Shown here one piece after another: positions 11,518 to 57,600 of a stretch of 64,000 nucleotides of DNA; the stretch's first letter is position 1; each line of letters starts with the position of its first letter. The position numbers and the translations under genes were made by a program. The stretch is from a virus. The stretch covers positions 1 to 64,000 of IMG/VR virus record IMGVR_UViG_3300025070_000012; one strand, given 5' to 3'. The notes under the pieces are model-generated. The model had not been told where the DNA came from and ran no database searches. It saw nothing but the letters and a program-made list of their open reading frames with translations.

Positions 11518-11684
11518 TGTCGACAGAATGTTTCTACTGCGTAAAACAATTCGATAAAGAAGAGTCATTCAAGATGACTGTAGAAATGGCAGAAGGACAG
11601 GCAACTTATGATGTCTGTCCTTCATGCGCAAAAGAGTTTGATCTAATCTTACAGGGTATTGAGGAGGCGAAAAATGAAATTTAG
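11517..11684 (+). CDS. 55-residue zinc-ribbon-like protein
   Basis: A short gene whose ATG overlaps the gp44 stop (TAATG) and whose end overlaps the next start by eleven bases. Two CxxC knuckles, CFYC (C5, C8) and CPSC (C34, C37), are placed as in a small zinc ribbon and separated by 25 residues. The tight overlaps on both sides support real translation. Function is unknown; its place inside the replication cluster suggests a nucleic acid or loader-associated role. Confidence 0.75.
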   Translation: MSTECFYCVKQFDKEESFKMTVEMAEGQATYDVCPSCAKEFDLILQGIEEAKNEI

Positions 11685-12301: not shown

Positions 12302-12313
12302 AAAACACGTTTT

Positions 12314-12321
12314 GATAAATA
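12314..12321 (+). promoter_or_regulatory. late promoter candidate upstream of regA
   Basis: GATAAATA matches seven of eight bases of the T4 late element TATAAATA and lies 67 bases before the regA start in an 86-base gap. No -35 box is needed for this class. Confidence 0.45.
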
Positions 12322-12334
12322 CTTTCGTTGGTTA

Positions 12335-12346
12335 TGTTGATCAACA
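12335..12346. repeat. 12-bp palindrome in the regA leader
   Basis: TGTTGATCAACA is a perfect palindrome between the late promoter candidate and the regA start. A second pair of arms (GTTATG at 12331-12336 and CATAAC at 12352-12357) could form a wider hairpin around it. It may be an operator or an RNA structure for autogenous control. Confidence 0.4.
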
Positions 12347-12387
12347 CCACCCATAACAATAAATTATAAAAAAGGTGAACATGTATT

Positions 12388-12789
12388 ATGAACGAAGATA
12401 TTTTTAAGGGAGTTGGTGTCGAGATTGAATTACCCTCTGATGATAGTTTTTTAAAAATTAAAGAGACGCTCACAAGAATTGGTATTTCTTCACGAAAAGA
12501 AAAAAGACTGTATCAGTCTTGCCACATCCTACACAAAAAAGGCAGATATGCAATCCTTCATTTTAAGGAACTGTTTATACTAGATGGTAAACAGAATACT
12601 TTCACAGACGAGGACAAAGCACGCCGAAACACTATTGTAAATTTACTAGAAGAGTGGGAACTACTCAAGATCGTTGATAAAGAAAAAACCAAGGATCCAG
12701 TTGCCCCATTAAATCACATTAAGATCATTTCTTATAAAGAAAAAGATCAATGGGATCTTACAGTAAAATATAATATAGGAAGAAAGTAA
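12388..12789 (+). CDS. regA: translational repressor RegA
   Basis: A 133-residue protein clearly homologous to T4 RegA (122): FLKIKETLTRIGISSRKEKRLYQ aligns with FLKVKETLTRMGIANNKDKVLYQ, followed by SCHILHKKGRYAILHFKELF, DEDKARRNTIVNLLEEW and KYNIGRK. RegA binds A/U-rich ribosome binding sites of early mRNAs, including its own and those of clamp and loader genes, and blocks translation. An eleven-residue N-terminal extension (MNEDIFKGVGV) is the main difference. A 12-bp palindrome lies in its leader. Confidence 0.95.
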   Translation: MNEDIFKGVGVEIELPSDDSFLKIKETLTRIGISSRKEKRLYQSCHILHKKGRYAILHFKELFILDGKQNTFTDEDKARRNTIVNLLEEWELLKIVDKEKTKDPVAPLNHIKIISYKEKDQWDLTVKYNIGRK

Positions 12790-12797
12790 TTTTTTGG

Positions 12798-12828
12798 TTG
12801 ACATGACCTTCAATTTGTGATATAAATA
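12798..12828 (+). promoter_or_regulatory. composite early plus late promoter for hsp20
   Basis: TTGACA (12798-12803), a 17-base spacer and TATAAA (12821-12826), a near-ideal sigma70 promoter. The -10 box extends to TATAAATA (12821-12828), which is the exact T4 late promoter element. The same site could thus serve host polymerase early and the phage late factor afterwards. Confidence 0.8.
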
Positions 12829-12887
12829 ACATTGTACGCCGTTATCGGGTACATAACATCAATCTTGCTTAATAAAGGAGATAGCAA

Positions 12888-39100: not shown

Positions 39101-41711
39101 TGGTGCGACTGCATTCCCTGCCCCTGCAGTGGGTGTCATACCAGAAGTTGGAACTTTGTCAAGAAATGCACATGTTTCATTAATCAGTCAAAAGTATGCA
39201 ACAGGATACAGAAATGCTGTAAGTAACTTCTATTCTTATAGAGGTACTCCAGACATCTCTCCACCATATGATGCGACTTATGACACAACTACAAATCCAG
39301 TAGAGATTGATTTCGAACAACCCTTCGTGGACTTTGCGGAAGCAATTCAAAAGTTTCTTCCTTTAACAGATGCTCAGATCAGCACAAATCAATTTACTGC
39401 AGATATCCAAGCGCAGTTAAGACGTGCACGATCAAACGGTGGTACAGTAACGTTTACAGATACGTTCGGAACCTTGAATATTGATAAGGGTAACTCTACA
39501 AATCAAGTTGGTGATTTTGTTACTAACTTCCAGTTCCAACCGTACATGTCTCCACGTGATATTGGTATTTACGTAACTGGACTGAGACCAAATACAAATC
39601 ACTACTTCTTCTTTGACAGAGCATCTATTCAGTCTAACGTCTGTCAGGGTACACTGGTCAACAAAGCGAAGAATGTAGAACGCAATGGCCCATTTAATGG
39701 ACAACCTATCGCCACAGATGAAAACGGTACTCTACGTGCAGTATTCAGACTACCTGCAGATACATTCTTTGTAGGTGAACGCATGTTGGAGATTGTCGAT
39801 ACAGATTTATATAATCAAATCGATTCCGCTGCAACATCACGTGCGAAGATTGCATATCGTGCATATAACTTTAGTGTCGAGAAGGCAAGTATGTCTACTC
39901 GTATGCCAACTTCGTCTATGACACAAACTACATCAAACCGTAGTGTGACATTCCGTCCACCACCCCCACCAGATCCTGGCGATAACAATGGTGATCCTCT
40001 CGCACAGACTTTCTTCCTCAAGAAAGGTATGGGACGTGGTAGTAACACAGTTGCGGCATCTAAGTTGGATCTGTATTTCAAACGTAAGTCATCATCACAA
40101 CTTTCAGGTGGTGGTGGTATTAACGGTGTTACTGTTATGTTGCGTGAAGTGGTTAATGGTTATCCATCAAGTGAAACTATCCCATTCTCGAAAGTACACT
40201 TGCAACCTTCAGAAGTCAACATCTCAGATGATGCAAGTGTTGCAACGACTATTGAGTTTGAAGCACCAGTTATCCTTGAAGTAGAAAAAGAGTACGCATT
40301 TGTAATTCAACCAGATGCGAACGATCCTGGCTATTTGGTATTCACATCGAAAGTTGGTCAGAATGATTTGACGCCTGGCGATACGCAAGGTAAACCAATC
40401 GTTCAAGACTGGGGTGATGGAGTTCTATTCACATCTACAAACAACTCTGCATGGAAATCATACCAAGACGAAGACGTTAAGTTTAATCTTTACCGTCATG
40501 ATTATAATGCATCTCAGGGTTCTATTACTCTGACAAACAATAATCATGAATTCTTTACAGTAACTGATATCACTGGTCAATTTAGAAAAGGTGAGAAAGT
40601 TTGGCAGACTGCAGGTACTGATCAAGTTGTCGGTATGGCAAATGCAAACAATACAATCACCAGAACAAGTGGTGCGAATTTTGATACTGTATATGCGATT
40701 GGTGACTTTATGAAGATTGCGGAGGCTGCAAACACTTCCAACTATGATATCTTTAAAGTAACCGCCGTTAGTGCAGATTCAATTACTGCAAACAAGAACT
40801 CAAATCAAACGTTCTCTAACGCTGTAGGTACTCCTATTGTTGTGGGTGACTTGTGTCTCTATGACGTAATCGATCCAACAACCATGTATCTTGAAAAGTC
40901 TACTGCAAGATCTGGAAAGGTTTTCGCAGTGGGAAGTGATATCGTTGGTGAAGATAGTGCTGCAACTGCAGAGATCTCTTCAATTGATAACATCACATTA
41001 AGTTATGTACAACCATTTATTCAACGTGTCAACGACTCAGTGACGAAAACTCAATTGTCAGGTACATTTATTCCACCTGCTGCAGTTGGTACAACATATG
41101 ACATGCCAATGAAGTTCAATGACAACAACTACTTTAATGCAAAGGGTGCGTTGATTTACAGTAGAACAAACAACTTGTCGGGTAATTTGAAATTCGAAAT
41201 CAAAGTTGGTATGGAAAATGGTGGTAACTCAACCTCGTCTCCATTTATTGATATGGAAACATGTAAGTTACTTGCCTATAAATACGATATAACAAATACT
41301 CCAGATGCAACTGCAAGTTTTGTTTCTAAGGTTGTAGAACTCGCAGAGGACTTCGATGCAGAAGACTTTAATTTGATTTTATCTGCGTACAGACCATCTG
41401 GTAGTGATATTAAATGTTACATCAGAGCGCAGAATACTTTTGATAGTATTGCATTTGATGAAGTGGATTGGGTTGAATTGGAAATGTTTGAAGGTATTGA
41501 GAACTTCTCTTCACAAACAAACATGGAAGATTATCGTGAATTTAGATATAGACTACCTACCAGTTCCCTTAACGCTGGTGTCTATCAATACATTAGTCGT
41601 GCAGGTACTTTTAAAACTTATAGAAAGTTTGCGGTTAGAATTGACTTATTGTCGCCAAACATTCACACTGCACCTATCATAAAAGATTATAGAGGCATTG
41701 CTTTGACATGA
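36132..41711 (+). CDS. large DUF4815 virion protein (baseplate/fibre connector)
   Basis: A 1859-residue protein whose N-terminus (YYRVLFKPGYAVQARELTQL, QTMLQNQVEQFGDNLFKEGS) is a clear DUF4815 domain, found in baseplate proteins of T4-like phages. Long beta-rich repeats follow; a proline cluster (FRPPPPPDPGDNNGDPLAQTFFL, about 1275-1297) marks the start of a C-terminal adhesin-like region. It probably plays the part of gp10 or a fibre connector. No enzyme motif was seen. It follows gp8 by eleven bases and overlaps the next gene by four. Confidence 0.75.
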   Translation: MPINTDLNVAPYFDDYQLENQYYRVLFKPGYAVQARELTQLQTMLQNQVEQFGDNLFKEGSIIKGCTFTDLNDLRFVKVENREAQSDGTTYFDPEAYVSTRITTTETTGGIETEVDVVYVLVGQSSGVSAQVISASRGFVTRPPNLNTFFIRYLNTTGSAKEFEAGETIRVDKYQYKAGTIEPLTSVEEGIDEINVVAESLIPTGKSFGISSAPGIVFQKGHFIYADEQILVVEKYSAEPSDLSVGYRIQEDNVSYLQDTSLYDNANGSTNENAPGADRLRLVPVLTKLTPSEAEDDSTFFALIRYQNGNAVRQRDVSAYNVLGDVTARRTYEESGNYILRDFPVSVERNYPVYTSFGSIADVNVIGDPQATLNAQYPVAVAGLAITDTATGDIWYYDGAYWHKIALEILVDPGVAYVKGYRAESIGTQSFEVEPTTNTEIQTSNPISFNYGNYVDVTGFTGHINIDLSSTQDLLDGGNAKIGECFVSNLTETRAYIWGVDLNAGKDFSDVAKIDGATTGEISVGNVLKGTDKRSFIFDTGMDYLKEVLETDLNVPIRGQSTRTVNNDEFQITAAPGTDFGVTQHNILVIASTGAKVTVTGTSTQLNNGQLTVALQPGAIANGQSVICYYDYRHIDSVVREKAAREVWLRLDHVGTRDRFSLGFPDVFEILALEDANGKDYKNSFRLNKNQKDQFYDLSSIEYIQGRPRPGNEQLRIQIKVFETNVPVGSESFYTVNSYVGVDEKDIPVYVSESGRKFNLRDCFDFRPQVVKESTMSYTSTNKATAPVMTISIQNNIDAAAPSFSGTYTLPSTDQFASADIEYYLPRYDVVSIDSYGKFNYIKGQEERDPRPPMLGTDQLIISEIFVPGAPILSPKEASAQGKREYAVRAKPKGTKRYTMKDIQSIENKIDRLVYYTSLNQLEQEVNNLTVLDENGLTRFKNGFIVDPFNDMSLANTRDPKFNAAVHFNKKVMTPSVSTFDLDLIYRTSTGATAFPAPAVGVIPEVGTLSRNAHVSLISQKYATGYRNAVSNFYSYRGTPDISPPYDATYDTTTNPVEIDFEQPFVDFAEAIQKFLPLTDAQISTNQFTADIQAQLRRARSNGGTVTFTDTFGTLNIDKGNSTNQVGDFVTNFQFQPYMSPRDIGIYVTGLRPNTNHYFFFDRASIQSNVCQGTLVNKAKNVERNGPFNGQPIATDENGTLRAVFRLPADTFFVGERMLEIVDTDLYNQIDSAATSRAKIAYRAYNFSVEKASMSTRMPTSSMTQTTSNRSVTFRPPPPPDPGDNNGDPLAQTFFLKKGMGRGSNTVAASKLDLYFKRKSSSQLSGGGGINGVTVMLREVVNGYPSSETIPFSKVHLQPSEVNISDDASVATTIEFEAPVILEVEKEYAFVIQPDANDPGYLVFTSKVGQNDLTPGDTQGKPIVQDWGDGVLFTSTNNSAWKSYQDEDVKFNLYRHDYNASQGSITLTNNNHEFFTVTDITGQFRKGEKVWQTAGTDQVVGMANANNTITRTSGANFDTVYAIGDFMKIAEAANTSNYDIFKVTAVSADSITANKNSNQTFSNAVGTPIVVGDLCLYDVIDPTTMYLEKSTARSGKVFAVGSDIVGEDSAATAEISSIDNITLSYVQPFIQRVNDSVTKTQLSGTFIPPAAVGTTYDMPMKFNDNNYFNAKGALIYSRTNNLSGNLKFEIKVGMENGGNSTSSPFIDMETCKLLAYKYDITNTPDATASFVSKVVELAEDFDAEDFNLILSAYRPSGSDIKCYIRAQNTFDSIAFDEVDWVELEMFEGIENFSSQTNMEDYREFRYRLPTSSLNAGVYQYISRAGTFKTYRKFAVRIDLLSPNIHTAPIIKDYRGIALT

Positions 41712-41902
41712 GTTCTCCAGCATCTATCAGAAGGGACAAACACTCGAATGCGATTTTGAATACGGATGCGCAGGCCCTGCATAAATATAAAATGGAAAGA
41801 CTTTATTATCGCAAGATTGATAAACTTCAGACAGATGTATTAGAAATACAAGAAACTCTTGTACGTATGTGCGAAAAAATAGAAAAATTGGAAAATAAGT
41901 AA
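41708..41902 (+). CDS. small coiled-coil late protein
   Basis: A 64-residue protein beginning in the ATGA overlap with the DUF4815 gene and ending one base into the S74 fibre gene. Residues 25-63 (KYKMERLYYRKIDKLQTDVLEIQETLVRMCEKIEKLENK in part) have leucine/isoleucine heptads, so a trimeric or dimeric coil is likely. It may be an assembly chaperone or a fibre neck. No family was recognised. Confidence 0.6.
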   Translation: MSSPASIRRDKHSNAILNTDAQALHKYKMERLYYRKIDKLQTDVLEIQETLVRMCEKIEKLENK

Positions 41903-42822
41903 TGGCAAAACCATCGATAGCCGATATTACGGTAACCCAAACCTTCCAGAACTGGTTTGATAAGACAAATGAATTAACTGGTATCATTCGTTCTGAAGCG
42001 ATGACTGCCTCGGCGGGTGGTGACACAACGACTGGTAATGCAACTCTCTTGGGTAACTTCACTGCAGGGATAGTAACTGCAAATGTCGCAACTGATTATA
42101 TTGAGTCAGATACAAACGGTGGAAGTATTACTCTTGGTTCTCCTTCTATTCACAACGCACTAGCAGATGCAATTTGTTCAACCTTCACATTCGGTGCAGG
42201 CGGTGGTAGAACAAGATATACTGATGGAAATATTTCTTGGGATATCGGGATGGAAGATTCATCCCAAGCGCATTTCATTATAGATACTGGTACTGGTGAC
42301 AGAAAGTTTAAGATCTCTCCATCAGGTACTGTTACTGCACCAGACTATGCAGGTAACAATGCAATATTTCAAAATGATGTAACCACAGACGATTTATACG
42401 CAAACAACATATCATACTCAGGAACATTCAGTGGGCCAGGCGGAGCTCTTGTGTTCGATGGGGATACAGAAATAGACGGTAACTTAACGGTGCTTGGTGA
42501 TGGTTACTTCACTGGTGATGTTGTTACCGCATACAATGCTTCAGACATTCGACTCAAGGATAACATTGAAGTAATCGATGGTGCAATAGATAAAGTAGAA
42601 CAGATTAATGGTTATACTTTTAACTACATCAACAAACCAGAGGAAAGAGTTGCAGGGGTCATTGCCCAAGAGGTAGAGAAGGTTCTACCTAATGTCACCT
42701 TCCCAATGGATGAACAAGGTCATTTGGCGGTTCGTTATGATAACATTATTCCATTGCTTATTCAAGCAATTAAAGAATTAAATGATAAGGTGGAAGCTCT
42801 GGAAGAAAAATCCAAAGATTGA
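41902..42822 (+). CDS. tail fibre with self-cleaving S74 chaperone domain
   Basis: A 306-residue fibre protein. The C-terminal domain (about 212-306) is an intramolecular chaperone of peptidase family S74: SDIRLKDNIEVIDGAIDKV with the cleavage serine S214, then AGVIAQEVEKVLPNV and YDNIIPLLIQAIKELND. After trimer folding the chaperone cuts itself off at S214. The remaining N-terminal fibre is short (213 residues) and beta-rich. All chaperone key residues are present. Confidence 0.85.
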   Translation: MAKPSIADITVTQTFQNWFDKTNELTGIIRSEAMTASAGGDTTTGNATLLGNFTAGIVTANVATDYIESDTNGGSITLGSPSIHNALADAICSTFTFGAGGGRTRYTDGNISWDIGMEDSSQAHFIIDTGTGDRKFKISPSGTVTAPDYAGNNAIFQNDVTTDDLYANNISYSGTFSGPGGALVFDGDTEIDGNLTVLGDGYFTGDVVTAYNASDIRLKDNIEVIDGAIDKVEQINGYTFNYINKPEERVAGVIAQEVEKVLPNVTFPMDEQGHLAVRYDNIIPLLIQAIKELNDKVEALEEKSKD

Positions 42823-42874: not shown

Positions 42875-45800
42875 ATGTCAAAAATTTCTGAATTAGGTTC
42901 GATTACCGGCGCCAATACGAGGACGGAAGACTTATTCGTCATCGTTAACCTCGTACAAGGTGATGACGGTACAAAGAATATAACCAGAAAAGAACTGGTT
43001 CAGGCGATCCAGTACGAAATATTTGACCGAATCACCATTACTGGTGGTAAGATCTCTGGTACAACTATATTCGAAAACGTGATGAACAACAACATCATGA
43101 ACGATAACGAATATAATCGTGGTACAATCAATGATACAGATGTAAATCGTGTTGACATTGATGACTCCCTGTTCCATGATGGTGATCTACGTGACTCAAA
43201 CGCCAACAACCTAACAATCACATTCTCTAGTTTCGATAACGGTACAATGGATACCGTCTTCGGTAATAATGTTACTCTCGTAAACTCTACGATTGATGAT
43301 TCAACTATTACTGATTCAACGGCGAACAATGTAGAAATCACTGAGTCAACATTTTCTAATGGTGCACTATTTGATTCTACTGCAAACAATATCTCGATTA
43401 CCGACTCTTCTTTTGAGAACGGTACTCTCGCAGACAGCACTGGTAATAACATTGTCCTAGACAACTCTGAGTTTAATCAGGGTATCATTAGAGATTCGGT
43501 TGCCAACAATATTGCAATCACATCGTCTACATTCACAGACGGTGGTATATTCGATAGTACTGCAAACAACGTTGCAATGACGAACTCAACTTTCACTACT
43601 GGTGAAATTTCTGACTCCACTGCGAATAACGTTGACATTGACTCTTCTACCTTTGTCAATGGTGCACTTGCAAACTCTACTGCGAATACCATGACCATTA
43701 TCGACTCTGATTTCTCAGACGGTACTGGTAACAATAACGTATTTACAAACACGACACTTGAAGATAGTCTTATCAAAGACTCAGTGATTGCCAACTCTAC
43801 CTTCACTGGTGAGTTGTCAGACATCTCGTTGGTTGATGCAACCATCGAATCTTCTTCAATGTCAAACACAGGTATCTCCGAATCCACTATGACTGGTGGT
43901 AAGATTGAAGATACTGCAATCAATGATGCGACAATCAACCGTCCAGATCTTGTCGACTTCGATATGGATCTCGACAACCAGTTCGAACCAAAGATTGATG
44001 AAAACTCTTGGTTCGCTCTTAAGAACGTTAAGACTGGTGAGACAGAACGTATCACATATCGTCAGTTCTTTGATGAGATTTCTAAGACTACTGCAAAGGC
44101 ACTTAAGGTACACGTTGAAGCGTCTTCTGGTGATGACAGAAATCCTGGCACAGTCCTTCAACCAGTTCGTACACTAGAACGTGCTGCAGAACTCGCATTG
44201 GAAAAAGCGGGTGGGGTTTATTCACGTAACGATGTAAACAATGCGGTTCACATCTCATGTGGGCCTGGCACATACTACACAAAAGGTGGTATCGCCCTTC
44301 CAGATGACTGTTCGTTGACATCTACTTCTGGTCAGTATGCAACAGTGATCGAAGCGTTGCCTGGCTATGAATTCGAAAACGCAGTTCTCGTAGGTTCTGG
44401 TTGTTATGTACAAGGTTTCTCATACACAAACTGGAAAGTTGATAACTTCGATTTCCCAGAAGGTGGATTTGCGATTGCATATCGTCCTGGCGCTAAACTA
44501 AGAAGATCTCCATACATTCGTGACTCCTCTCAGTTGTCAAACTTCCTTCGTGCAGATGTTGAACCACCACTACAACCATTTAACTCTAAAGGTACTCTCG
44601 CAGACCTTGGACGTGAAATCTATATGGAAGTTGGTCACTCAGGCACATTCTCTGAAGGTGATGAGATTGTATTTGGTTCAGGTGCAGTTGGTTTTGTGTC
44701 TTGGGATGCAGACGTTGCAACAGATGATCGTATCTACGTTCGTAACCTAAAAGGTGAAATCAACGTAGGTGATACAATCATCTCAGAATCAGGTGGTACA
44801 GGTAACATTGCAGTCATCGGTATCGACGACTTCCCGAACCCACTCGTGGGACGTGGTGGTGGTTGTGTGCTTGCAGACAGACGTGTTCTTGATCCAGACT
44901 CACTCTACACTTACCTATTGACATTTGGTTTTACACCTCGTACACAGAACGGTATCGGTTACGTTGCACGTGATGGTGCTGGTGTTAACGGTATTGGTTC
45001 ATTGTCAATCTTCACACGTTGTGCGTTCTACGCATTGAACGGTGGACAGGTTACACTCAACAACTCAGGTACACAGTTTGGTGACATCTCTATGAGGGCA
45101 AAAGGAACTACACAGTTCTATGCACCAAGAGACACTACTGTACAGATTGATTTAAACGCAGGTGGTAATACTGCCTTCGGTGATTCAATTCTTCAGAACG
45201 CTAATAACATCATTGATGACATGGTCGATTACCTTACATCCAACACCTCTTCTGGTGGACTTGGATATCAAGGTTATGACGCAGAGAAATGTTATCGTGA
45301 TACTGGTATCATTCTTGACAAACTGTCACAAGACATTCAGACTGGTTCAAACTATTGGGGTCGTTTGTCTGGTATCACTTATCGTTCACCAATTTCTTAT
45401 GTTGTGCCTGGCGAACAGTTGGAAGAAACTGCTGGTGCAAACAGATATCTGCAAGGTCGTCTAGGAACTATCTTTGCAAATGCGAATACTGAAATTCTAG
45501 AACGTGCAAATACTTCTTATGACGAACTCTTGAACATTCTTGAGAACGGTGAAGAGTATGCATCTCCTATTGTATTCACAGAAGTTGGAAACAACGAAAC
45601 TGCAACTGCATATACCAATGCACGTAAACAGATTCAAGACAACCGTAAATTTATTGAAAACGAATTAATCGATTGGATCGAAGATAACGACGAGTTCTTC
45701 GCATACAATTCTATTGCGTGTCGTCGTGATACACAAGATTACATCTTGCCTGCAGTAGCACAAGATCTAATGTTGGATACGAACTACAACTCTGTCACTG

Positions 45801-48800
45801 CAGGTAATGCGTACTATATGAACGCTGCTGCAAAGGTTATCAACAACCAACGTGACGAAACAGTCGCTGCATATAAGAGACTAAAAGAACAAACAAATGA
45901 AATCATCGATGCGAACTCGTTCATTGGTGCAATTCGTTCTGACTCTGCATTCGATAATATCATTGATGCATTGGAAGAAAAACGTAAAACATATACACCT
46001 ACATTCGTAGAGTATGATCCAATTTCTGGTATCATGGAAGTTGAAATCGGTCAACACCGTCTTCATGTAGATCAGAAGATCATCCTCGAAAAAGAATCAA
46101 TCACATTTGAGTGTGGATTGTCTGGTAAAGATGGTGAGATCACTCATCCACGTGCTACAGACCCTGCATTCATGAAACCGATTCCAATCCTTGAAGTAAC
46201 AGAGACAACTATCGTCCTTCAAGTTGGTAATGCTGGTGGATACACAAACATCCATTACTTCAAGTCTGCAGATGCAGATTGTATTCGTCTTGCAGAAAAC
46301 TGCTACACTCCAGTTGGATCTACATATGATCCTGCTACAGGTGTGACTGTTGTAACATTCGATGATATCCACAGAATCGAAGCGGGTGACTTAATTGAGA
46401 TTGCTCCAGGCGGTTTGACATATGAGTGTGCGAATACTACTACACTTCAGTTGGTGTCTATTTCACATCCACGTCCTGCCGACAAATGGTTTAAGAATGC
46501 TCTACAGGTAACATCTATTACTCCATATACCATCACATTCAACTCAGGTGATGCAGGTGGTTATACTGGAGCGCATAGTTTCACAGGTGCACTTGAAAAC
46601 GCTGTACAAGTTATCGGTAAGGGAATTCTATTCTCTGACGATGTTGGTATTGATGCGAACAAGAAAAATGCACGTAAACAATTACAGGCTAACAAGAAGT
46701 ACATCCAAGACTATATGATGGGTTGGATTGACAACAACTTCTTCATCTACGATAGTGCAAAATGTGAGAGAGATGTTCAACAGTACATCTTGCCTGCAGT
46801 ACAACAAGACATGATGTTGGGAACCAACTGGAACTCTGTACAGACAGGTGTTGGTTACTACGCAGGTACTGCATCTGAAGTAGTCGGAGATCAGTTGCCT
46901 GAAACAGTCGGTGCGGTGTCGGAACTTAAAGGTCTTGTTGCAGATATGACACAGGCGAAGTATACGCCTACTGATGCAACATACGATCCACTAAGTGGTA
47001 TTACTACACTTACACTTGGTACACATGATATCGAAGTAGGTGACTCTATCAAACTTGCACCAGAAGCGATTACATTCTCATGTGCAAATACCAGTACTGG
47101 TGTCATTGGTACGGACTCACATCCAAACCCAGCGGATCCAAACTATAACAAACCATTCGTTGTCACTGCAGCGGATGCGACATCTATCACATTCCAAAGT
47201 GGTGATGCAAATGGTTATACTGGTGTTCACACATTCGTATCTGCACAGGTAGATTCAGTACATCACTTGGTACATGATAACTTTGCAATCGGAACTGCAG
47301 GGAACGCATTCGACGAAATCATTCATATCATGAAAGGTTCTGGTCGTTCTTATACTCCAACGAATGCTACATACGATCCTTTGACAGGTGAAATGGTTGT
47401 CACTATCGGTACTCACAGTCTGACAACTGATGATCAAGTTATGTTTGCGCCTGAGTCTATTAGTTTCTATTGTGATGCCAATAACGTTGTCATCTCACAT
47501 CCAAGACGTAGTGACACAGACAATTACAAGAAACCACTTGACATTACTGCAGTTGGTCTTACTACAATCACAGTTAATGCTGGTGATGCAGGTGGATACA
47601 CTGGTGTCCATACATTCTATAAGGCAGATCCAAACTCAGTTTCTGTATACAACGAAACACGTAAAAAGACTTATACTCCAACCACTGCAACTTATGACAC
47701 TGCAACTGGTGACATGGTCGTTACAGTCGGTGTCCATAACCTACAAGTAGGTCAGTACATTGCACTGGAACAAGAAAGTATCGTCTTCACATGTGCATTA
47801 GATGGTAATCAGACTGAACATGCATATCCTCGTCTGAGTGATCCGTGGAACAAGAAACCAATTAAGATCAAGGCTGCAACTGAAACCACATTCACTATTA
47901 ATGTGGGTGGTTATGCAAATGGTACTGCACACACATTCGTACGTGCAACAGAAGGTGCGGTACGTGATGACGTAGTAACATTCTCAGATCCAGCGATGAT
48001 CGAAGAATTCAAGACTCCAACTGGTGTTGCATACACCGTAGGAACTGGTGTATTTACTCTGACTATTCCAAATCATGGTTTGAGTGCAGGGGATCGTGTA
48101 GAACTGATGCCAGGATCGTTCACATTCACATGTGGTTCTGACAACAACCTATCAGAGATCTCTCATCCACGTCCATCAGATCCACCATACAGAAAACCGT
48201 TGACAATTACTGCAACGCCTGATATTAATACAATCCAAGTAAATGTGGGTGTTGGTACTGGTGGTGCACATACATTCGTACGTGTCGCAGATAATGCGGT
48301 TGCGGTACTTCGTGCAAACGCAGATGAAGTAAACGCATTCGAAACACTTCAAGCGAACCGTGACTTCCTTGCAAATGAAGTTGTCGGATATCTTGCAAAC
48401 ACTTACTTCACTTATGACAGTGCGAAGTGTGAAAGAGATACAGGGTTCCTTATCGATGCAGTAAAACGTGACGTTCTTACTGGTTCTAACTACAACGCTG
48501 TTTACATGGGTAAAGGTTATCGTATCGGTACTCAAGGTGCAGACACAGTTGTCAATGATCAGTTAACTGAAACAGTTGGTGCATTCACATGGTTGAAACA
48601 ACAGGTATCTGCGAAAATATCAGGTACTGCACAGACACGTGCTGAAGCTGCATTTGATGAAGTTATCGATATCGTAACAAACGGTACAAGTGCCGCAGAT
48701 GTAATCAACTTCGGTGACTCATATGTGTCTAACGATGCATTGAACACTCGTGGTATCATTCAATCTAACAAAGCATTCCTACAAGCAGAAATCACTGCAT

Positions 48801-51800
48801 GGTTGGCAGTTGAGTATCCATCGTTCACATACGATGTTGCAAAATGCGAAAGAGATGTCGGAATTCTAGTTGACGCTGCATCTTATGATATCCAACATGG
48901 TTCAAACGTTGCATCTATCAACGTTGCAAGACTTTATTTTGAAAACGCAGTTTCTGTTCTTCCAGTAGAACAAAGACATATTACTGCAGAATCGTTCCAG
49001 CATATTGCAAACGTTGCCAAGAAACTTGCACGTAACGAAACTGTTACTCCTACAACTGGTAATGCTGTTACTCCTACATCTTGGACTAATGTAGAATACA
49101 CACCAACTGATGTGACATACAATCCAATTTCTGGTATCATGGTTATCGATCTTGGTGAAGCGCACAACTTTGTACAAGATGATTACATGATCTTTGATCC
49201 AGAGTCAATCACATTGTCTTGTGGTTCACCAGTTCAAGAGATTGTACATCCACGTCCAACTGATCCAGTATACGAAAAACCAGTTCGTGTTCTTGCGACT
49301 ACTGCAAATACTATCACACTAGATGTGGGTGATGCAGGTGGTTATGAAGAAGAGCATGGGTTTGTATCTGCAACAACTGGTGCAATCAAGAAATACTTCT
49401 CTGACTTTATGGGTCAACGAGTAGAAGATCTTGTCAATATTGTTTCTGACTCTATTGAAGAAGATACACTACTACGTCTCCCTGCAGAGATTGAACCAAA
49501 CGATATTGGAACTGCATTCTATCAGACTGCTGCAAAAGGTACAATTGTCGGTGGTGGTTCTACTGCACTTGAAGCAGTTGTTAAAGGTGGTTCTGGTGGT
49601 ATCGATGGTGCACAAGGTGGTCTCATCTCTTACAACGTTGGTGGCCCACAACAGGCATACAGAACTTCGAAGTTCTCACCATTCGAGTTTGGGCCAGGCA
49701 ACACTGGATATGCAGAAGAGTTCCAAACTGCAACTAAACTTATCAATGGTCTAACAGAGAAACTACAGACAGAAGTAACTGAGTATATTAACGAAACATA
49801 TAACGGTGTTGGTTTCCAACAGTCTAAATGTACTCGTGACACTGGTTACTTGGTCGATGCGGTTTCTGAAGATATACTCTACGGTGGTAACGCTGCAACA
49901 GTCAAGGCTGCAGAAGCGTACTTCATTAACTCTATCAACTTGTTACCAGAATATCAGTACGATGCAACACAGGCGGCATTTACCCACCTCGCAGATCGTG
50001 CAGAGAAAGTTGTTTTGGAAACAGTTATTGAACCACACTTCGAAGGTGCATACACTCCAACTGATGTCGACTATGATCCAGTAGAAGGATCTATGGTACT
50101 GACTCTTGGTGCGCATGATATCTTAGAAGGTGATTTCATCTGGTTCGAAACTGAAGGTATCACATTCGAGTGTGTAAACACTGCTACTTCATCTACTGTT
50201 CAGATTTCACATCCACGTGCAGTCGCAGGGGATGGTTATCCAGATCCAGCATACTTGACTCCATGGCCTGTTAAATCAGTTGATGCAACTACTGTTACTT
50301 TGACTGGATTCAACGCAGGTGGTTACGCTGGTGCACATACATTCGTAAGTGCAACTGCAGACGCAATCAAACATGTACAGTATCAAACTGTTGCACAGAA
50401 CTTCTCTGGTACTGCAACATCTACACAGGTTGCTCAGAGAGTTCAGGATCTGATGTTAGTAATTGCAAATATTGTGGATGATCGTACAAACGAAAACATC
50501 CCTGCAGTTGCAGATGCTCCAACATACACTCCACTTAGAACATTTGCACGTGATCAAATTCAGTCAAACCGTAAGTTCTTGATTGAAGAAACTGTTGCCT
50601 TCTTGAATGATTCATACTATACTTACGATGGTGATAAGTGTTTCAGAGACACAGGTTTCCTAATCGATGCGGTCAAGTGGACTTCACCGAATACACCATT
50701 TACTGGTCAGGAGTATCCACTCGTTCAGGCTGCAACTTCTTACTTGACAGGAACTGCAGGTGCAACTCGTACTCGTGAAACTCAGATCAGTGAGTTGGTA
50801 GGTGGTCTAAGATTTGTTAAAGATAAACTGAGAGGCATCATCCGCAAAGAAGAGAAAGTACTATCTAAGTACGATGATACGTATCTTCTTGAAGAACAAC
50901 TTGATCAAGGGTTCGAATCAATCATTGATATGATGACAAATCCAAATGCAAACACCACACCAATCTGGTCTGCAGAAGGATATATAAACGGTATTCGTGC
51001 AAGAGAAAACCTGCAAGCAAACAAAGCATTCTTACAGGCAGAAACAACTGCATATATCGCAATCGTTCATCCATCTCTAACATATGATGTTGCGAAGTGT
51101 GAAAGAGATATCTCTCACATCCTTGATGCAGTATCTTGGGATATGCAATACGGTGCTGAAGAAAATGGCACAAACGTGATGACAGTAAACAACGCTAGAC
51201 TGTATTTCGAAAATGCAGTAAGTGTTCTACCTGTTGATCAACGTGGCCCAACTGCAGATGTATTCCAACATATCGCAACAATGGCAGATAACATTGTAAG
51301 ACTTATCGGTGTATCTAAAACTGCAGGTAACGCACTTGATCCAGTAACTTCTGGTCTGACTGCAACATCCACTGCACATGGTACTAAGGTTGAAGAACTT
51401 ATCGAAATCATTGCCAATGCAGTTCTTGCAGATGATGGTATCGACGGTCTACCTGCAATGGTTGACAACAGTGTCTTCCTCAAGTCAACATATCCTGCTG
51501 GTGGTGTCATGTATGACATTATCGAAAGAGAAAAAGGAACAATGCAGTCTGCAATCAACACTTATATTGCAGATAACTACAATGGTCTTGCATACAGTGA
51601 GTCTAAGTGTCGTCGTGATTTGGGTTATATTATCGATGGTATTTCGCACGATCTTCAGTACGATGGTAACTGGGCAACTCACAAGAATGCAGAAATCTAT
51701 TTTGAAAATGCAATCAATACACTTCCTAAAGATCAACGTGATCCTACTCGTCGTGCATTCATGCATCTTGGTAAAACAATGGAGACAGTCTTACAACGTC

Positions 51801-54166
51801 TTCCAGTTGAACCAACTATATCTAACAGATTTGGTGCACGTTTCACTCCAACCACTGCCACATATGATCCATTAACTGGTATCTTTACTGCAGAAGTTGG
51901 CCCACACGCACTAAAAGTTGGTGATGCAATCTGGATGGCAGATGAAAGTATCGTAATGTCATGCGACATGGGTAGTGGTGCAGTAAACCACTCCTCACCC
52001 GCTGCACATCATCCTTACTTCAGAAAACCATGTCCGATTACTGGTGTAACACGTACATCGATCACAATGAATGTTGGTACTGGTGGTACTGGTAATTATC
52101 CTCACACATTTGTGAGTGCTGAAGTTGACGCTCTTGTTCAAGTAATTGGTAATCATATACCACAAGACTTCCGTCATCTACCTGCAGTATATCCAGAACG
52201 TACTGATCTTAAGGGTGAAGCAATGAAACTTGCAAACATGATTGCAGATGCTGCACTTGCAGAGGATCCATCAGGAATTCCTGCCCGTGTATCACCAGAC
52301 ACTTCATGGGTTCCAAGTAACATCATTGCATCTAAGAACTTGATTTCAGATATCTCTGATGAACTCGCAACGAAGGTTGTGGACTATGTATCTCGTGAGT
52401 GGGATGGACTATCATTCCCACGTGGTAAGTGTCGTCGTGATATGGGCTTCTTGGTTGATGCTGCATCACATGATGTTCAGTACGAAACAAACTATGCATC
52501 TCGTATCTCTGCACAGATCTACTTCGAAAACGGTGTATCTGTACTACCAGAAGATACTCGCAGACAAACTGCAGATGTATATCGTACAATGAAACTTCTG
52601 ATGTCTGACATCGTTCAAGAGATCGATACAACAAACACATCTATCACTACGACTGCACAAGACATCTCTGGTGATCCAGCAACTCCAACTGAGGGTACAG
52701 AAGTTGTTAACTTGATTGGTATCGTAGAAGACGTGATTCGTGAAGATAGTGTCGCTGCAATTCCTGCCCTACAGGAAGCGAATACTGCATGGGTATCAAG
52801 TGACTTGGTTGGTGCGAACAAACTTATCGAAGACAATAAAGTAGAACTCGCAGACAAGTTAATCGAATTCATCAACACTGAGTTCAACGTACTTGACTAT
52901 AACAAGTCTAAGTGTCGTCGTGATGTAGGATACCTACTAGATGCATTCTCATATGACTTGAACTACGGTGGTAACAGTGCATCTCGTTGGAACGCAGACT
53001 TCTACTTCTGGAACTCAGTATATCGTATCCCAGAAGATCAACGTGAAGCGACTGCGAAGTCCTATCGTGAACTAGGTAGAATTTGTAAGAAGATCGTTAC
53101 AGGTGATTACAAAGGTCAGTCACTCAAGTATGATACTGCAACTGAAATAGAGGCCAATAAAGTTGAAGGTCTCGCCAATATGTTCTATCTAACTCAGATA
53201 AATAAAGATACAAAAGAACTACAAACACTTATTGAACCAAATTATGATTGGGTTGAAAAACCATTTAGAGATGCAAAAGAAGTAATTCTGAAGAAACGTG
53301 GGCCTCTGCAGTATGATGTTGTAAGATTTGTTAACGCAACTTATAACTTTGTTGATATTAACTTGACAAGACGTGATGCAGGTAACTTGTTGCAGACTAT
53401 CGTCAACGACATCAAGTTTACTAACCCGAATACAGGACAACAAGGTTCGACTAAAGCGACAAGAACTTTCTCACAATCGTTCTTCGATCAAAAAGGTCAA
53501 CAGGTATTCCCAGTATTCAATGCAACAACGCCTGGGTTGAGATTCATGGGTACAGTGGCGGATATCTCTGCACGTAATGCGTTGCAGTCAGATCCAAACC
53601 TTACTCTGAAACCAAATATGGCGTGGATCGTTTCTGATGATGCAAATATAAACTTCTACCAAGGAACTATATACTATTGGAACGGTGGAGCATGGGTTAA
53701 TGACGGTCAAAATAATACTGATCTTCTATATGCGTTCTATAAAACATGGGATCGTATGAGAGACTTTATTATTGCGAACTATTCACCAGATGGAGCACAC
53801 AGTGCATTTATCACTGCTCTGTTTGATGATTGTTTGAAAGGTAACGTCCTAAGACCAGACGTGTTAACATTCGGTTCACTTGTTGAATCAATTGCTCACC
53901 AGTTTAACGGTGGTGCTGCAGGTGTTAACAGAACTGCGTTGCCACTGAACTTTAGAAACCTTGGGCCTGCAACGTCTGCGATTTCTTCGGTTCTCTCTGA
54001 AGATGGTGGTCGTGTAAGATGGTCTGGTGCAGACGAATTGAACAACCAGTACTTCGCAAGAGGTTTGAGAATTAACGGTAGAACAGGTCGAATCGAAGGA
54101 AGACCATTTACCTCATCTGTTCGTAAACTCGCAAGACGTGCATCGAACAGTAGAGCTGTAGTATAA
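42875..54166 (+). CDS. giant repeat-rich virion protein, 3763 residues
   Basis: The largest gene of the window. Residues about 50-360 form a pentapeptide-type helix in an exact 20-residue register (DSTANNVEITESTFSNGALF). Residues about 410-720 look like a right-handed beta-helix (HVEASSGDDRNPGTVLQPV, then SCGPGTYYTKGGIALPD). From about 790 to 3500 two repeat types alternate: nine copies of a beta module (YTPTxxxYDPxTG ... ISHPR ... GGYTGxHTF) and about twelve of a helical module (YDxAKCERDxGxLxDAxxxD). The C-terminus (GRVRWSGADELNNQYFARGL) resembles marine phage tail proteins. It is probably a long tail or whisker fibre, with no enzyme motif. Confidence 0.8.
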   Translation: MSKISELGSITGANTRTEDLFVIVNLVQGDDGTKNITRKELVQAIQYEIFDRITITGGKISGTTIFENVMNNNIMNDNEYNRGTINDTDVNRVDIDDSLFHDGDLRDSNANNLTITFSSFDNGTMDTVFGNNVTLVNSTIDDSTITDSTANNVEITESTFSNGALFDSTANNISITDSSFENGTLADSTGNNIVLDNSEFNQGIIRDSVANNIAITSSTFTDGGIFDSTANNVAMTNSTFTTGEISDSTANNVDIDSSTFVNGALANSTANTMTIIDSDFSDGTGNNNVFTNTTLEDSLIKDSVIANSTFTGELSDISLVDATIESSSMSNTGISESTMTGGKIEDTAINDATINRPDLVDFDMDLDNQFEPKIDENSWFALKNVKTGETERITYRQFFDEISKTTAKALKVHVEASSGDDRNPGTVLQPVRTLERAAELALEKAGGVYSRNDVNNAVHISCGPGTYYTKGGIALPDDCSLTSTSGQYATVIEALPGYEFENAVLVGSGCYVQGFSYTNWKVDNFDFPEGGFAIAYRPGAKLRRSPYIRDSSQLSNFLRADVEPPLQPFNSKGTLADLGREIYMEVGHSGTFSEGDEIVFGSGAVGFVSWDADVATDDRIYVRNLKGEINVGDTIISESGGTGNIAVIGIDDFPNPLVGRGGGCVLADRRVLDPDSLYTYLLTFGFTPRTQNGIGYVARDGAGVNGIGSLSIFTRCAFYALNGGQVTLNNSGTQFGDISMRAKGTTQFYAPRDTTVQIDLNAGGNTAFGDSILQNANNIIDDMVDYLTSNTSSGGLGYQGYDAEKCYRDTGIILDKLSQDIQTGSNYWGRLSGITYRSPISYVVPGEQLEETAGANRYLQGRLGTIFANANTEILERANTSYDELLNILENGEEYASPIVFTEVGNNETATAYTNARKQIQDNRKFIENELIDWIEDNDEFFAYNSIACRRDTQDYILPAVAQDLMLDTNYNSVTAGNAYYMNAAAKVINNQRDETVAAYKRLKEQTNEIIDANSFIGAIRSDSAFDNIIDALEEKRKTYTPTFVEYDPISGIMEVEIGQHRLHVDQKIILEKESITFECGLSGKDGEITHPRATDPAFMKPIPILEVTETTIVLQVGNAGGYTNIHYFKSADADCIRLAENCYTPVGSTYDPATGVTVVTFDDIHRIEAGDLIEIAPGGLTYECANTTTLQLVSISHPRPADKWFKNALQVTSITPYTITFNSGDAGGYTGAHSFTGALENAVQVIGKGILFSDDVGIDANKKNARKQLQANKKYIQDYMMGWIDNNFFIYDSAKCERDVQQYILPAVQQDMMLGTNWNSVQTGVGYYAGTASEVVGDQLPETVGAVSELKGLVADMTQAKYTPTDATYDPLSGITTLTLGTHDIEVGDSIKLAPEAITFSCANTSTGVIGTDSHPNPADPNYNKPFVVTAADATSITFQSGDANGYTGVHTFVSAQVDSVHHLVHDNFAIGTAGNAFDEIIHIMKGSGRSYTPTNATYDPLTGEMVVTIGTHSLTTDDQVMFAPESISFYCDANNVVISHPRRSDTDNYKKPLDITAVGLTTITVNAGDAGGYTGVHTFYKADPNSVSVYNETRKKTYTPTTATYDTATGDMVVTVGVHNLQVGQYIALEQESIVFTCALDGNQTEHAYPRLSDPWNKKPIKIKAATETTFTINVGGYANGTAHTFVRATEGAVRDDVVTFSDPAMIEEFKTPTGVAYTVGTGVFTLTIPNHGLSAGDRVELMPGSFTFTCGSDNNLSEISHPRPSDPPYRKPLTITATPDINTIQVNVGVGTGGAHTFVRVADNAVAVLRANADEVNAFETLQANRDFLANEVVGYLANTYFTYDSAKCERDTGFLIDAVKRDVLTGSNYNAVYMGKGYRIGTQGADTVVNDQLTETVGAFTWLKQQVSAKISGTAQTRAEAAFDEVIDIVTNGTSAADVINFGDSYVSNDALNTRGIIQSNKAFLQAEITAWLAVEYPSFTYDVAKCERDVGILVDAASYDIQHGSNVASINVARLYFENAVSVLPVEQRHITAESFQHIANVAKKLARNETVTPTTGNAVTPTSWTNVEYTPTDVTYNPISGIMVIDLGEAHNFVQDDYMIFDPESITLSCGSPVQEIVHPRPTDPVYEKPVRVLATTANTITLDVGDAGGYEEEHGFVSATTGAIKKYFSDFMGQRVEDLVNIVSDSIEEDTLLRLPAEIEPNDIGTAFYQTAAKGTIVGGGSTALEAVVKGGSGGIDGAQGGLISYNVGGPQQAYRTSKFSPFEFGPGNTGYAEEFQTATKLINGLTEKLQTEVTEYINETYNGVGFQQSKCTRDTGYLVDAVSEDILYGGNAATVKAAEAYFINSINLLPEYQYDATQAAFTHLADRAEKVVLETVIEPHFEGAYTPTDVDYDPVEGSMVLTLGAHDILEGDFIWFETEGITFECVNTATSSTVQISHPRAVAGDGYPDPAYLTPWPVKSVDATTVTLTGFNAGGYAGAHTFVSATADAIKHVQYQTVAQNFSGTATSTQVAQRVQDLMLVIANIVDDRTNENIPAVADAPTYTPLRTFARDQIQSNRKFLIEETVAFLNDSYYTYDGDKCFRDTGFLIDAVKWTSPNTPFTGQEYPLVQAATSYLTGTAGATRTRETQISELVGGLRFVKDKLRGIIRKEEKVLSKYDDTYLLEEQLDQGFESIIDMMTNPNANTTPIWSAEGYINGIRARENLQANKAFLQAETTAYIAIVHPSLTYDVAKCERDISHILDAVSWDMQYGAEENGTNVMTVNNARLYFENAVSVLPVDQRGPTADVFQHIATMADNIVRLIGVSKTAGNALDPVTSGLTATSTAHGTKVEELIEIIANAVLADDGIDGLPAMVDNSVFLKSTYPAGGVMYDIIEREKGTMQSAINTYIADNYNGLAYSESKCRRDLGYIIDGISHDLQYDGNWATHKNAEIYFENAINTLPKDQRDPTRRAFMHLGKTMETVLQRLPVEPTISNRFGARFTPTTATYDPLTGIFTAEVGPHALKVGDAIWMADESIVMSCDMGSGAVNHSSPAAHHPYFRKPCPITGVTRTSITMNVGTGGTGNYPHTFVSAEVDALVQVIGNHIPQDFRHLPAVYPERTDLKGEAMKLANMIADAALAEDPSGIPARVSPDTSWVPSNIIASKNLISDISDELATKVVDYVSREWDGLSFPRGKCRRDMGFLVDAASHDVQYETNYASRISAQIYFENGVSVLPEDTRRQTADVYRTMKLLMSDIVQEIDTTNTSITTTAQDISGDPATPTEGTEVVNLIGIVEDVIREDSVAAIPALQEANTAWVSSDLVGANKLIEDNKVELADKLIEFINTEFNVLDYNKSKCRRDVGYLLDAFSYDLNYGGNSASRWNADFYFWNSVYRIPEDQREATAKSYRELGRICKKIVTGDYKGQSLKYDTATEIEANKVEGLANMFYLTQINKDTKELQTLIEPNYDWVEKPFRDAKEVILKKRGPLQYDVVRFVNATYNFVDINLTRRDAGNLLQTIVNDIKFTNPNTGQQGSTKATRTFSQSFFDQKGQQVFPVFNATTPGLRFMGTVADISARNALQSDPNLTLKPNMAWIVSDDANINFYQGTIYYWNGGAWVNDGQNNTDLLYAFYKTWDRMRDFIIANYSPDGAHSAFITALFDDCLKGNVLRPDVLTFGSLVESIAHQFNGGAAGVNRTALPLNFRNLGPATSAISSVLSEDGGRVRWSGADELNNQYFARGLRINGRTGRIEGRPFTSSVRKLARRASNSRAVV
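43280..43730 (+). repeat. 60-bp tandem coding repeats (pentapeptide helix)
   Basis: About seven units of 20 codons with consensus DSTANN(V/I)xITxSTFxNGxLx. Four pentapeptide coils make each unit. The register is kept with no insertions, while the DNA has diverged at third positions. Confidence 0.8.
45255..53410 (+). repeat. two interleaved protein repeat families in the giant gene
   Basis: Family A (nine copies, first near 45990, last near 51840-52140) is a beta module ending in xHTFVxA. Family B (about twelve copies, first near 45260, last near 53340) starts with a CxRD motif and is helical. The last B copy has lost its cysteine. In several places B follows A in alternation; later B copies stand in pairs. 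Confidence 0.8.
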
Positions 54167-54178: not shown

Positions 54179-54634
54179 ATGGCATACTCACAATATGAAG
54201 ATGGAAACACAGGGATAACGGTCATTGTGACCTCCCAAGCACCAGATGCTTTGCCAATTGGATTTAACGCTGTATTAACTACAGAGTTTGATGAAGTTAT
54301 TACTGTCCCCCAGTTTAGAGTTCCCGAACTTGTTTTCGGGGGTAGTGAAACAATTGAGCCTGGCATCGGGGAAGTTATTTCACCACTCATTTTATGCAAC
54401 ACCACAAACGCTACTGCGACAGTTGATGTTAACATTTATAGATTCAGTAATTCGATAACTTATGATTTAATTAAAAATTTACCTGTACCTGCTTATGACA
54501 CAATCCCAATTCCAATTAACGGACAGTTCTTCGCTTCTGGTGATATCATGCAAGCACGTTGTAGTGCAAACCTTGCAATTACTGCAACGTTGTCATATAC
54601 GGTAGGCCAGGCGGAGGAATACGATGTCGACTAG
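54179..54634 (+). CDS. late structural beta-sandwich protein
   Basis: A 151-residue beta-rich protein (GFNAVLTTEFDEVITVPQF, TNATATVDVNIYRFSNSI, SANLAITATLSYTVGQAE). No family was recognised with confidence. It sits between the giant protein and the collagen-like fibre, overlapping the latter by eleven bases, so it may cap or join those fibres. Confidence 0.65.
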   Translation: MAYSQYEDGNTGITVIVTSQAPDALPIGFNAVLTTEFDEVITVPQFRVPELVFGGSETIEPGIGEVISPLILCNTTNATATVDVNIYRFSNSITYDLIKNLPVPAYDTIPIPINGQFFASGDIMQARCSANLAITATLSYTVGQAEEYDVD

Positions 54635-57600
54635 GTTTCGCACTTTTACTAATCGTGGATTTTCGATTGGTAATGGTATCCCACAAGATCCAGCGCAGTT
54701 AGATCCTGCTGCGTTTAAAGGTTCGGTAATTTACACGATTACCGACGAAATCCGTTATTCGGATGGAACGTCATGGATACCAGTTTCAGGTGCTCAAGGA
54801 ACCACAGGTTTTCAAGGCCCAGATGGACTCCAAGGTATTCAAGGTGAATATGGGCCAGGATTTACAATCATTGGTTCTGTACCAGATGTAGATTCGGGTG
54901 GAGATCCACAGGCAACTCTTAATGCTGCGTTTGGATCTGCAAGTGTCGGTGACGGTGTCATTGATGACGCAGACGAAGAACTATGGATTTATGACGGTGT
55001 AAACTGGATTAACATTGGTACGTTTAGAGGTGTCCAAGGTTTCCAAGGCGTACAAGGCACACAGGGTGTGCAAGGTGATCTTGGCGCAAAAGGTGTCCAA
55101 GGTTTCAGAGGATTTAGAGGTTTCCAAGGTGTGCAGGGCGCACAAGGTACTCAGGGTTTCCAAGGTATTCAAGGAGATCGTGGTTATCAGGGCGTACAAG
55201 GTATGCAGGGAACCCAAGGATTACAGGGTGATCAGGGTACTCAAGGATTGCAAGGCCCACAAGGCCCGCAAGGAACGCAGGGCGTTCAAGGTACACAAGG
55301 CCCACAGGGAACTCAAGGGTTCCAAGGTGTTCAGGGTACAGACGGTGCATTCGCAGGTCAGGGTGTGCAAGGGCCTCAAGGCCCTCAAGGTACTCAGGGA
55401 CTTCAAGGTGTACAGGGTACACAAGGCCCACAGGCATTCCAAGGTGTACAAGGTACGCAAGGTTGGCAAGGTGAGGCGATTCAAGGTATCCAAGGTCAAC
55501 AAGGCCCGCAGGGAGTACAAGGTACTCAAGGTCTGCAAGGTGATCAGGGTACTCAAGGCGTACAAGGCCCACAAGGCACAAAAGGTTTTCAAGGAAATCA
55601 AGGCGTTCAAGGTACACAAGGTGGAACTGGTGACACTGGTTTGCAGGGTCTTCAAGGGCCTCAAGGAACACAGGGTGTACAAGGCCTTGAAGGTTATTAC
55701 GGTGGTCTAACATTCGAGTGGATCAACAACTCAACATCTGGGGATATATTCCCTGGCGTTGGGTATTTTGCGTTGGTCTCTGGAAGTACAAACTCTTCTA
55801 CAGATGTTTACGCTGTTGACAAAATCTGGTTCGACGATAAACCATCTGATAGTAATAGACGTATTGACGATCTATTCAATTACATAGATTCAAATCCAGG
55901 CGTTCCAAAAGGTCAGATGATGATCAGAACGCCTCGTGATACAACTAACAATGACTTTGAATTCCTACTCTATCAAATCGATGATTGGACATGGGCAGGT
56001 AGTGGTGGTCAAGAAGACAACGGTTGGTTTGATGTTACATTTATTGAAAAATCTCTTTTAGGTTCTGGTGGTGCAAACACAGTTTCTTGGGATGATGCAA
56101 CTGCCCGTTATGGTGACACTGCAATCATTTCATTCATGCCTTCTGGCCCAGTTGGCCCAACAGGTATTCAAGGTGTTCAAGGTGATCTTGGTTTCCAAGG
56201 TACACAAGGATCTCAAGGATTCCAAGGATCTCAAGGCGCTCAGGGTATTCAGGGGTTCCAAGGATTCCAAGGTATTCAAGGGGAAGCCATTCAAGGTGTT
56301 CAAGGCCCACAGGGTACACTTGGTATTCAAGGTTTCCAAGGCATTCAAGGTATCCAAGGTCAAGAGGGATCTCGTGTATTTGAAGTAACCAATAACGGTA
56401 ACATTGCATACACGATTGATGGACAAGACAACCCAACACTACAGTTGTTGAGAGGTTTCACATATACATTTGATGTGAATGCGTCTGGACATCCATTCTT
56501 TCTTAAGACTTCACGTACACTTGGTACAGGTAACCAGTATACGCAAGGTGTCACGAATAACGGTGCTGCAGTTGGTCTAGTAACAATTAGGGTTGCGTAT
56601 AACGCACCAGATCAGATCTTCTACCAGTGTTCTCTCCATTCTGGTATGGGTGGAACAATTAATATTTCTGATCTTGGCCCTCAAGGTGTTCAAGGCCCAC
56701 AAGGTGTACAGGGTGATCTTGGTTTCCAAGGTGATTCGGGTTCCTTCGGTGGTGCAACATTTGACTACACATTCGATGGCGCAGGTACGACTGAGATTAA
56801 CACTGCAGTCGGTGATATTCGTTTCAATAGTTCAACATTCTCTAATGTTACAGAAATTTATATCGACGAACGTGATGATAACTTCGTAAATTTAGACACT
56901 TACTATGCATCACTTGATACGGTAACTGGACTTGTCAAAGGTTCTTTGGTTGTTAAATCAAAGGCAGATCCTACTAACTTCTTTGTCTTCGATTATGAAG
57001 ACATTACAGATGGTGGTGGATACTGGAAGTTCGAAGTTAATTATCTGACTGGTGCAGGTGCAAACTTTGCAGACAACGCAGACATCGTTGTCACATTTGC
57101 TCGTGCAGGTTCTACAGGTGCAGGCGTACAGGGTGCGCAAGGTACTGGTGGATTCCAAGGAACTGCAGGTAATCAGGGTATCCAAGGTGTTCAAGGTATC
57201 GGAAACCAAGGTACGCAGGGTATTCAAGGTATACAAGGTGACTTAGGTACACAGGGTTCAACAGGAACTGGAGCACAGGGTATTCAAGGCCCACAGGGTG
57301 CTGACGGTTTCCAAGGTGGATCAGGTTTCCAAGGTGCATCTGGTGCAGGTTCTCAGGGTGTACAAGGTATCCAAGGCGTTCAAGGTAATCAGGGTATTGC
57401 TGGTGAAGGCGCACAAGGTATTCAAGGTGGATTTGGTACACAAGGTGTCCAAGGTATGCAGGGTGCTCAAGGCCCAACTGCGCAAGGTTCAGGTGGTTTG
57501 CCTGGCCCGCCCGGCGCACAGGGTTTCCAAGGTATCCAAGGTTCTCAGGGTATTCAAGGTGGAACTGGATTTGGTAACGTTGGTAACCAAGGTGTACAAG

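Follow-up and report, generated by a model that had tools for sequence, protein, structure and literature searches.

A repeated phycobiliprotein-like module, predicted from structure models, in a giant tail-fibre protein of a marine T4-like phage

Introduction

In many phycobiliproteins the chromophore cysteine sits in a CXRD attachment motif, and the same motif occurs in BBAG-1/3 of other bacteria; these bilin biosynthesis-associated globins (BBAGs) are loaded with bilin without lyases (PMC10151467). Bilin genes are also found in phages, and the literature leaves open why phages carry them. The role of phage cpeT 'remains unresolved' (PMC3037559); for phages that infect Prochlorococcus, a host without standard phycobilisomes, the benefit of such genes is called 'unclear' (PMC2984593); and for the heme oxygenase/bilin reductase cassettes described in phages with a proposed alphaproteobacterial host, where they have no known use, the authors 'can only speculate' (PMC11480375). 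In the literature that we searched, which excluded subscription papers and preprints, we found no report of phycobiliprotein-like or bilin domains in virion proteins.

Marine T4-like phages encode giant fibre proteins (phrog_5342, 701, 4527 and 18802; T4-GC 734 of S-PM2 and Syn1). Here we analyse a related protein encoded in a window of 64,000 nucleotides, taken from a 119,238-base IMG/VR virus contig (IMGVR_UViG_3300025070_000012), and we consider what the helical module repeated along it may do.

Organization of the giant fibre protein

The features of the locus are listed below in window coordinates, where A is a beta module (with the approximate residue at which each copy starts) and B a helical module (with its CxRD cysteine). 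The open reading frame (ORF) is uninterrupted.

41902–42822, plus strand: upstream neighbour, fibre protein with S74 intramolecular chaperone
42875–54166, plus strand: giant tail-fibre-type virion protein, 3763 aa (ORF and PHROG match)
43055–43714, plus strand: N-terminal region, exact 20-residue period (aa 61–280), pentapeptide-like
45134–45508, plus strand: B module 1 (Cys806, CYRD)
45563–45937, plus strand: B module 2 (Cys949, CRRD)
45980–46309, plus strand: A module 1 (aa ~1040)
46301–46630, plus strand: A module 2 (aa ~1147)
46607–46981, plus strand: B module 3 (Cys1297, CERD)
46949–47278, plus strand: A module 3 (aa ~1363)
47339–47668, plus strand: A module 4 (aa ~1493)
47660–47989, plus strand: A module 5 (aa ~1600)
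47999–48328, plus strand: A module 6 (aa ~1713; AlphaFold: 10 strands, endosialidase beta-barrel-like)
48272–48646, plus strand: B module 4 (Cys1852, CERD; AlphaFold: 7 helices; weak Pfam Phycobilisome match)
48689–49063, plus strand: B module 5 (Cys1991, CERD)
49085–49414, plus strand: A module 7 (aa ~2075)
49673–50047, plus strand: B module 6 (Cys2319, CTRD)
50039–50368, plus strand: A module 8 (aa ~2393)
50483–50857, plus strand: B module 7 (Cys2589, CFRD)
50942–51316, plus strand: B module 8 (Cys2742, CERD)
51452–51826, plus strand: B module 9 (Cys2912, CRRD)
51830–52159, plus strand: A module 9 (aa ~2990)
52274–52648, plus strand: B module 10 (Cys3186, CRRD)
52757–53131, plus strand: B module 11 (Cys3347, CRRD; AlphaFold pLDDT 86)
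53210–53584, plus strand: degenerate twelfth B module (T3498-x-R-D, Thr replacing Cys)
54624–58523, plus strand: downstream neighbour, collagen-like fibre protein

An earlier note on this DNA, made from the sequence alone, had claimed nine copies of the beta module, about twelve of the CxRD helical module and an N-terminal 20-residue period. Nine A modules were indeed located, eleven B modules were found together with one degenerate copy, and the exact period extends over aa ~61–280, a region in which Pfam Pentapeptide_4 scores just below its cut-off (E 4e-9; 36.8 bits versus 38). That the two modules 'alternate' was loose wording, since their order along the protein is BBAABAAAABBABABBBABBb (b being the degenerate copy) and strict alternation does not hold. 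The repeats are not a product of chance: when profiles made from the copies in the window were searched against viral proteins, as had been proposed, 76 viral loci yielded 703 B modules of nearly full length and 454 A modules.

The suggestion that the product forms a long virion fibre has fared well. PHROG tail-fibre and virion-structural families match the protein (E to 4e-124), and the neighbouring genes include baseplate/tail genes, with the S74-chaperone fibre and the collagen-like fibre on either side; a giant tail-fibre or baseplate-attached virion protein is thus the well-supported, sequence-based prediction. GxQG repeats are numerous in the collagen-like protein (Pfam Collagen E 2e-70), and another giant ORF (3283 aa) lies at 65014–74865 of the same contig. 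Elsewhere in the window are a protein similar to DruA of the Druantia defence system (2819–3925; Pfam E 1e-7) and a phage-borne UDP-glucose/GDP-mannose dehydrogenase gene (8607–9476).

As a whole the protein is not new, since it belongs to the giant tail-fibre/virion families of marine T4-like phages, with which it has module families, size class and tail/baseplate context in common. Relatives were found in 345 phage records, all of them Synechococcus, Prochlorococcus or cyanophage by organism name except seven named 'Marine', and megablast of the gene against phages gave no match. With less than 60% identity to every one of these relatives, isolates included, and with nine A and eleven B copies, the window protein is a divergent new member among the known giant fibre proteins of this group.

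The A module

In an AlphaFold model of an A–B segment the A module has ten strands, and its best PDB matches are phage endosialidases, those of phi92 (4hiz, E 4.6e-4, prob 1.00) and K1F/NF (K1F 1v0e), over ~100 columns. On this predicted model the endosialidase-type beta-barrel is the closest fold, at a sequence identity of 15–17%. The corresponding Pfam family (PF12195) gave weak matches in 3 of 52 A modules (best E 0.006), an A-module profile searched against PDB sequences returned two weak matches only, both unrelated, and a Pfam scan of the window protein found no endosialidase domain. To the sequence signatures previously noted for A must be added a set of invariant residues of its own, His, Cys and Pro (H26, C45 and P55 of alignment A2). 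We infer that the module may act as a spacer or in glycan contact.

Predicted fold of the B module

AlphaFold prediction from an alignment of 85 diverse B modules (pLDDT 86) gave five helices in a 125-residue core. When the model of B module 11 was compared with the PDB by Foldseek, 220 matches were returned (E<=10), and every one of the 50 listed is a phycobiliprotein or an engineered relative; E values are 0.1–0.9, prob is mostly >0.9 and up to 1.00, and TM (query) reaches 0.72. For a second paralogue (B module 4; 47 orthologues only) seven helices were predicted (112–123, 125–139, 145–165, 169–177, 183–191, 193–208 and 213–232), which follow the expected order A, B, E, F', F, G, H, with CxRD opening the third; its match list is dominated by A-module and chance matches and includes a phycobiliprotein (prob 0.96). 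A globin-like helix fold is present in the predicted models of both paralogues.

Sequence searches also led to phycobiliproteins. When all PDB chains were searched with a B profile, 19 of the 23 matches with E up to 10 were to alpha-phycocyanin (best E 0.06), and in the PDB alignments listed the CxRD of B falls on C84-x-R86-D87 of alpha-phycocyanin. Among 146 cyanobacterial genomes the top matches were mostly ORFs of phycocyanin size, and nine of the 11 checked were phycobiliproteins. Pfam Phycobilisome (PF00502) scored 15.0 and 12.7 bits on the window, below the cut-off of 22.2; in scans of single modules it was matched by 4 of the 85 B modules (best E 0.06) and was the sole family matched by more than one. 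We consider it highly probable, on the strength of these models, that B has the phycobiliprotein, or bilin-binding globin, fold. The earlier note's statement that the modules are not explained by any family is therefore overturned at the level of fold, B being phycobiliprotein-like and A endosialidase barrel-like in prediction, and stands at the level of sequence, where both modules appear new, no match to either having been seen to pass a curated Pfam threshold in these scans.

With phycobiliproteins (alpha-phycocyanin, phycoerythrin) B thus shares the predicted order of helices and the position of CxRD, and a Lys precedes the Cys as in alpha-phycocyanin. It differs from them in that the predicted module has no N-terminal X–Y helices, the loop preceding CxRD is ~9 residues shorter, and the copies are arrayed in tandem inside a fibre. 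The BBAGs, as described, resemble it too, being bilin-globins with CxRD whose genes are associated with those of heme oxygenase and bilin reductase (PMC10151467); they are, however, separate cellular proteins in gene clusters, whereas B is a repeated domain of a virion protein.

Distribution of B modules, lyase genes and bilin genes

Of 50,697 phage records, 349 matched the B consensus; their names mark them all as picocyanobacterial phages except for one uncultured 'Marine' record, and a tandem B segment searched against plasmids gave no match. When 16 chosen phages were searched with a profile, B turned up in ten cyanophages, and not in HTVC008M (of the same family, with a SAR11 host), KVP40, T4, P-SSP7, P-SSM2 or S-SM2. 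A match to bilin reductase or CpeT was seen in each of the ten B-bearing phages; a bilin reductase is also encoded by P-SSM2, which has no B modules.

A full-length cpeT, a phycobiliprotein lyase gene, is found a short way upstream of the giant B-module ORF in seven of seven cyanophages examined (S-PM2, Syn1, S-WAM2, S-RSM4, S-H9-2, ACG-2014e and Sf-FR1), with a short-tail-fibre or tail-collar gene downstream. Because these phages are related, this should be read as one conserved layout, not as seven independent events; S-SCSM2R, whose CpcT gene is shorter, does not conform to it. A general rule by which a lyase implies the module was rejected, as S-CREM2 and S-B68 carry an S-type lyase and no B modules. 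In cyanobacteria, T-type lyases act on Cys-153, not Cys-84 (PMC10452541). Two further observations concern these genomes: a 2OG-Fe(II) oxygenase gene, the product of which possibly modifies fibre residues, lies between cpeT and the giant ORF in S-PM2, Syn1 and S-H9-2, and the RefSeq record of S-PM2 (NC_006820) has sixteen tRNAs annotated inside the giant fibre ORF (locus 8057–12884), probably a coordinate error.

The window phage was at first assumed to be a cyanophage. This assumption was dropped, since no psbA was found in 17 contigs of the window clade (two of them 156 and 170 kb; S-PM2 scores as expected) and the capsid protein of its own contig is nearest to those of Sinorhizobium and Methylophilales phages and P-SSM2. 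The window-clade phages are not typical cyanophages, and their host may be non-cyanobacterial. Nor was cpeT found in the 13 window-clade contigs searched, for which reason a cpeT-linked account was rejected for this clade; the marine T4-like isolates differ from it on both points, psbA and an adjacent cpeT.

The window's own partial contig yielded no bilin reductase, heme oxygenase or CpeT. A cassette of heme oxygenase and bilin reductase was present in two of the 13 window-clade contigs, G156 and G154, both with B-module ORFs (11 and 10 modules, respectively). The two genes are adjacent in both contigs; in G156 they lie at 37857–39236 on the minus strand (Pfam E 5e-19 and 3e-18), and in G154 they were identified by similarity; in each case the cassette lies in the same genome as the B ORF and not next to it. 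Absence of the cassette from the other contigs carries little weight because most of them are fragments.

Bilin binding and its alternatives

Across the 85 diverse B modules, which are often only 20–35% identical, the sole invariant columns are C, R and D. In cyanophage isolates 31 modules read CRD, nine CDD and one CLD, and the C-x-D-D subclass is often the last recognised B copy of its protein. The claim that the cysteine is lost only in the last copy proved broadly true across the window's relatives: among 1545 modules, 1482 have C-R-D, four C-A-D and 59 T-R-D, the last group being consistent with the last, degenerate copy.

A covalently bound bilin would be the simplest reason for an invariant C, R and D in a phycobiliprotein-like fold, and it would fit the bilin genes as well. 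We regard it as the single most likely function of the B family, at somewhat less than an even chance. Each B module would hold a linear tetrapyrrole, joined to the Cys by a thioether bond and kept in place by the Arg and Asp, with the bilin supplied by the host or by phage-encoded heme oxygenase and bilin reductase. Loading might be carried out by CpeT in many cyanophages, or proceed by self-assembly as in BBAGs, and the A modules would be spacers or glycan-facing domains. The limitation of B to cyanophages among isolates and the nearby cpeT in seven of them speak for this reading. Several findings weigh against it: Phycobilisome scores under the cut-off, the shortened loop, the C-x-D-D copies that have no Arg, the bilin reductase of P-SSM2 and the S-type lyases of S-CREM2 and S-B68 in phages devoid of B modules, the action of T-type lyases on Cys-153, and a window clade in whose searched contigs neither psbA nor cpeT was found and whose host may be non-cyanobacterial.

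Almost as likely, B keeps a phycobiliprotein-like fold captured from a bilin-globin and has become a purely structural helical spacer, bilin-free, in which C-R-D packs the start of the helix. A spacer would suit the tandem arrangement with beta-barrels inside a fibre and would account for the near-invariant Asp+14 and Asn+20, which are particular to B, and for a Tyr and a Thr that are nearly as conserved as CxRD, as in a structural core; the existence of CxDD and TRD copies, the loss of Arg+9 and Tyr+13, which are invariant in phycobiliproteins, and the failure to find a lyase gene in the 13 window-clade contigs searched point the same way. However, the residues that B has retained are the chromophore residues, whereas the two that changed belong to the alpha–beta interface, and bilin genes co-occur with B modules in several phages; both observations argue against a purely structural role.

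It is rather unlikely that the resemblance is convergent, that is, that B is a helical bundle of other origin in which a CxRD turn arose by chance, with AlphaFold drawn to a remembered phycobiliprotein. Alignment of B with 38 phycobiliproteins from cyanobacterial genomes by hhalign gave a probability of 85 (pairwise E 6.5e-6) and a score of 37.6, against 11.4 for reversed columns and <=16.4 for 100 column shuffles. With C, R and D masked the score falls to 16.7, near the shuffles, so the sequence similarity lies mainly in one helix, that of CxRD, within ~20 residues; this, and Foldseek E values that are never below 0.1 for the phycobiliprotein matches listed, are what convergence would predict. 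Yet when eight motif columns were masked (score 17.4) the best alignment kept its register, the helices agree between predictions from different paralogues and alignments, phycocyanins make up most of the best matches among whole genomes and PDB chains alike, and the distribution of B tracks the cyanophages. The wider case for a relationship between B and phycobiliproteins is structural and predicted.

Least probable by far is a role of B in binding a host receptor or glycan, with C-R-D and the additional invariant residues making up a site for a non-bilin ligand, as might be imagined for a fibre whose A modules resemble an endosialidase beta-barrel, since such a site would be expected to diversify and CxRD has not done so.

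Implications

The predicted fold, taken with CxRD, suggests that some marine phages may carry bilin pigments on their virions. The more specific proposal, that virion fibres of marine phages bear arrays of covalently bound bilin loaded by phage heme oxygenase, bilin reductase and CpeT, we hold to be doubtful. As to what a pigmented fibre might be for, one can speculate about light sensing or signalling at adsorption, photoprotection or stabilization.

A repeated bilin-globin-like domain in a virion protein is a concrete candidate acceptor for the bilins that phages make. If the fibres are pigmented, the B modules would be the acceptor that has been missing; should they bind no bilin, a light-harvesting fold would still have been reused as a module of a tail fibre.
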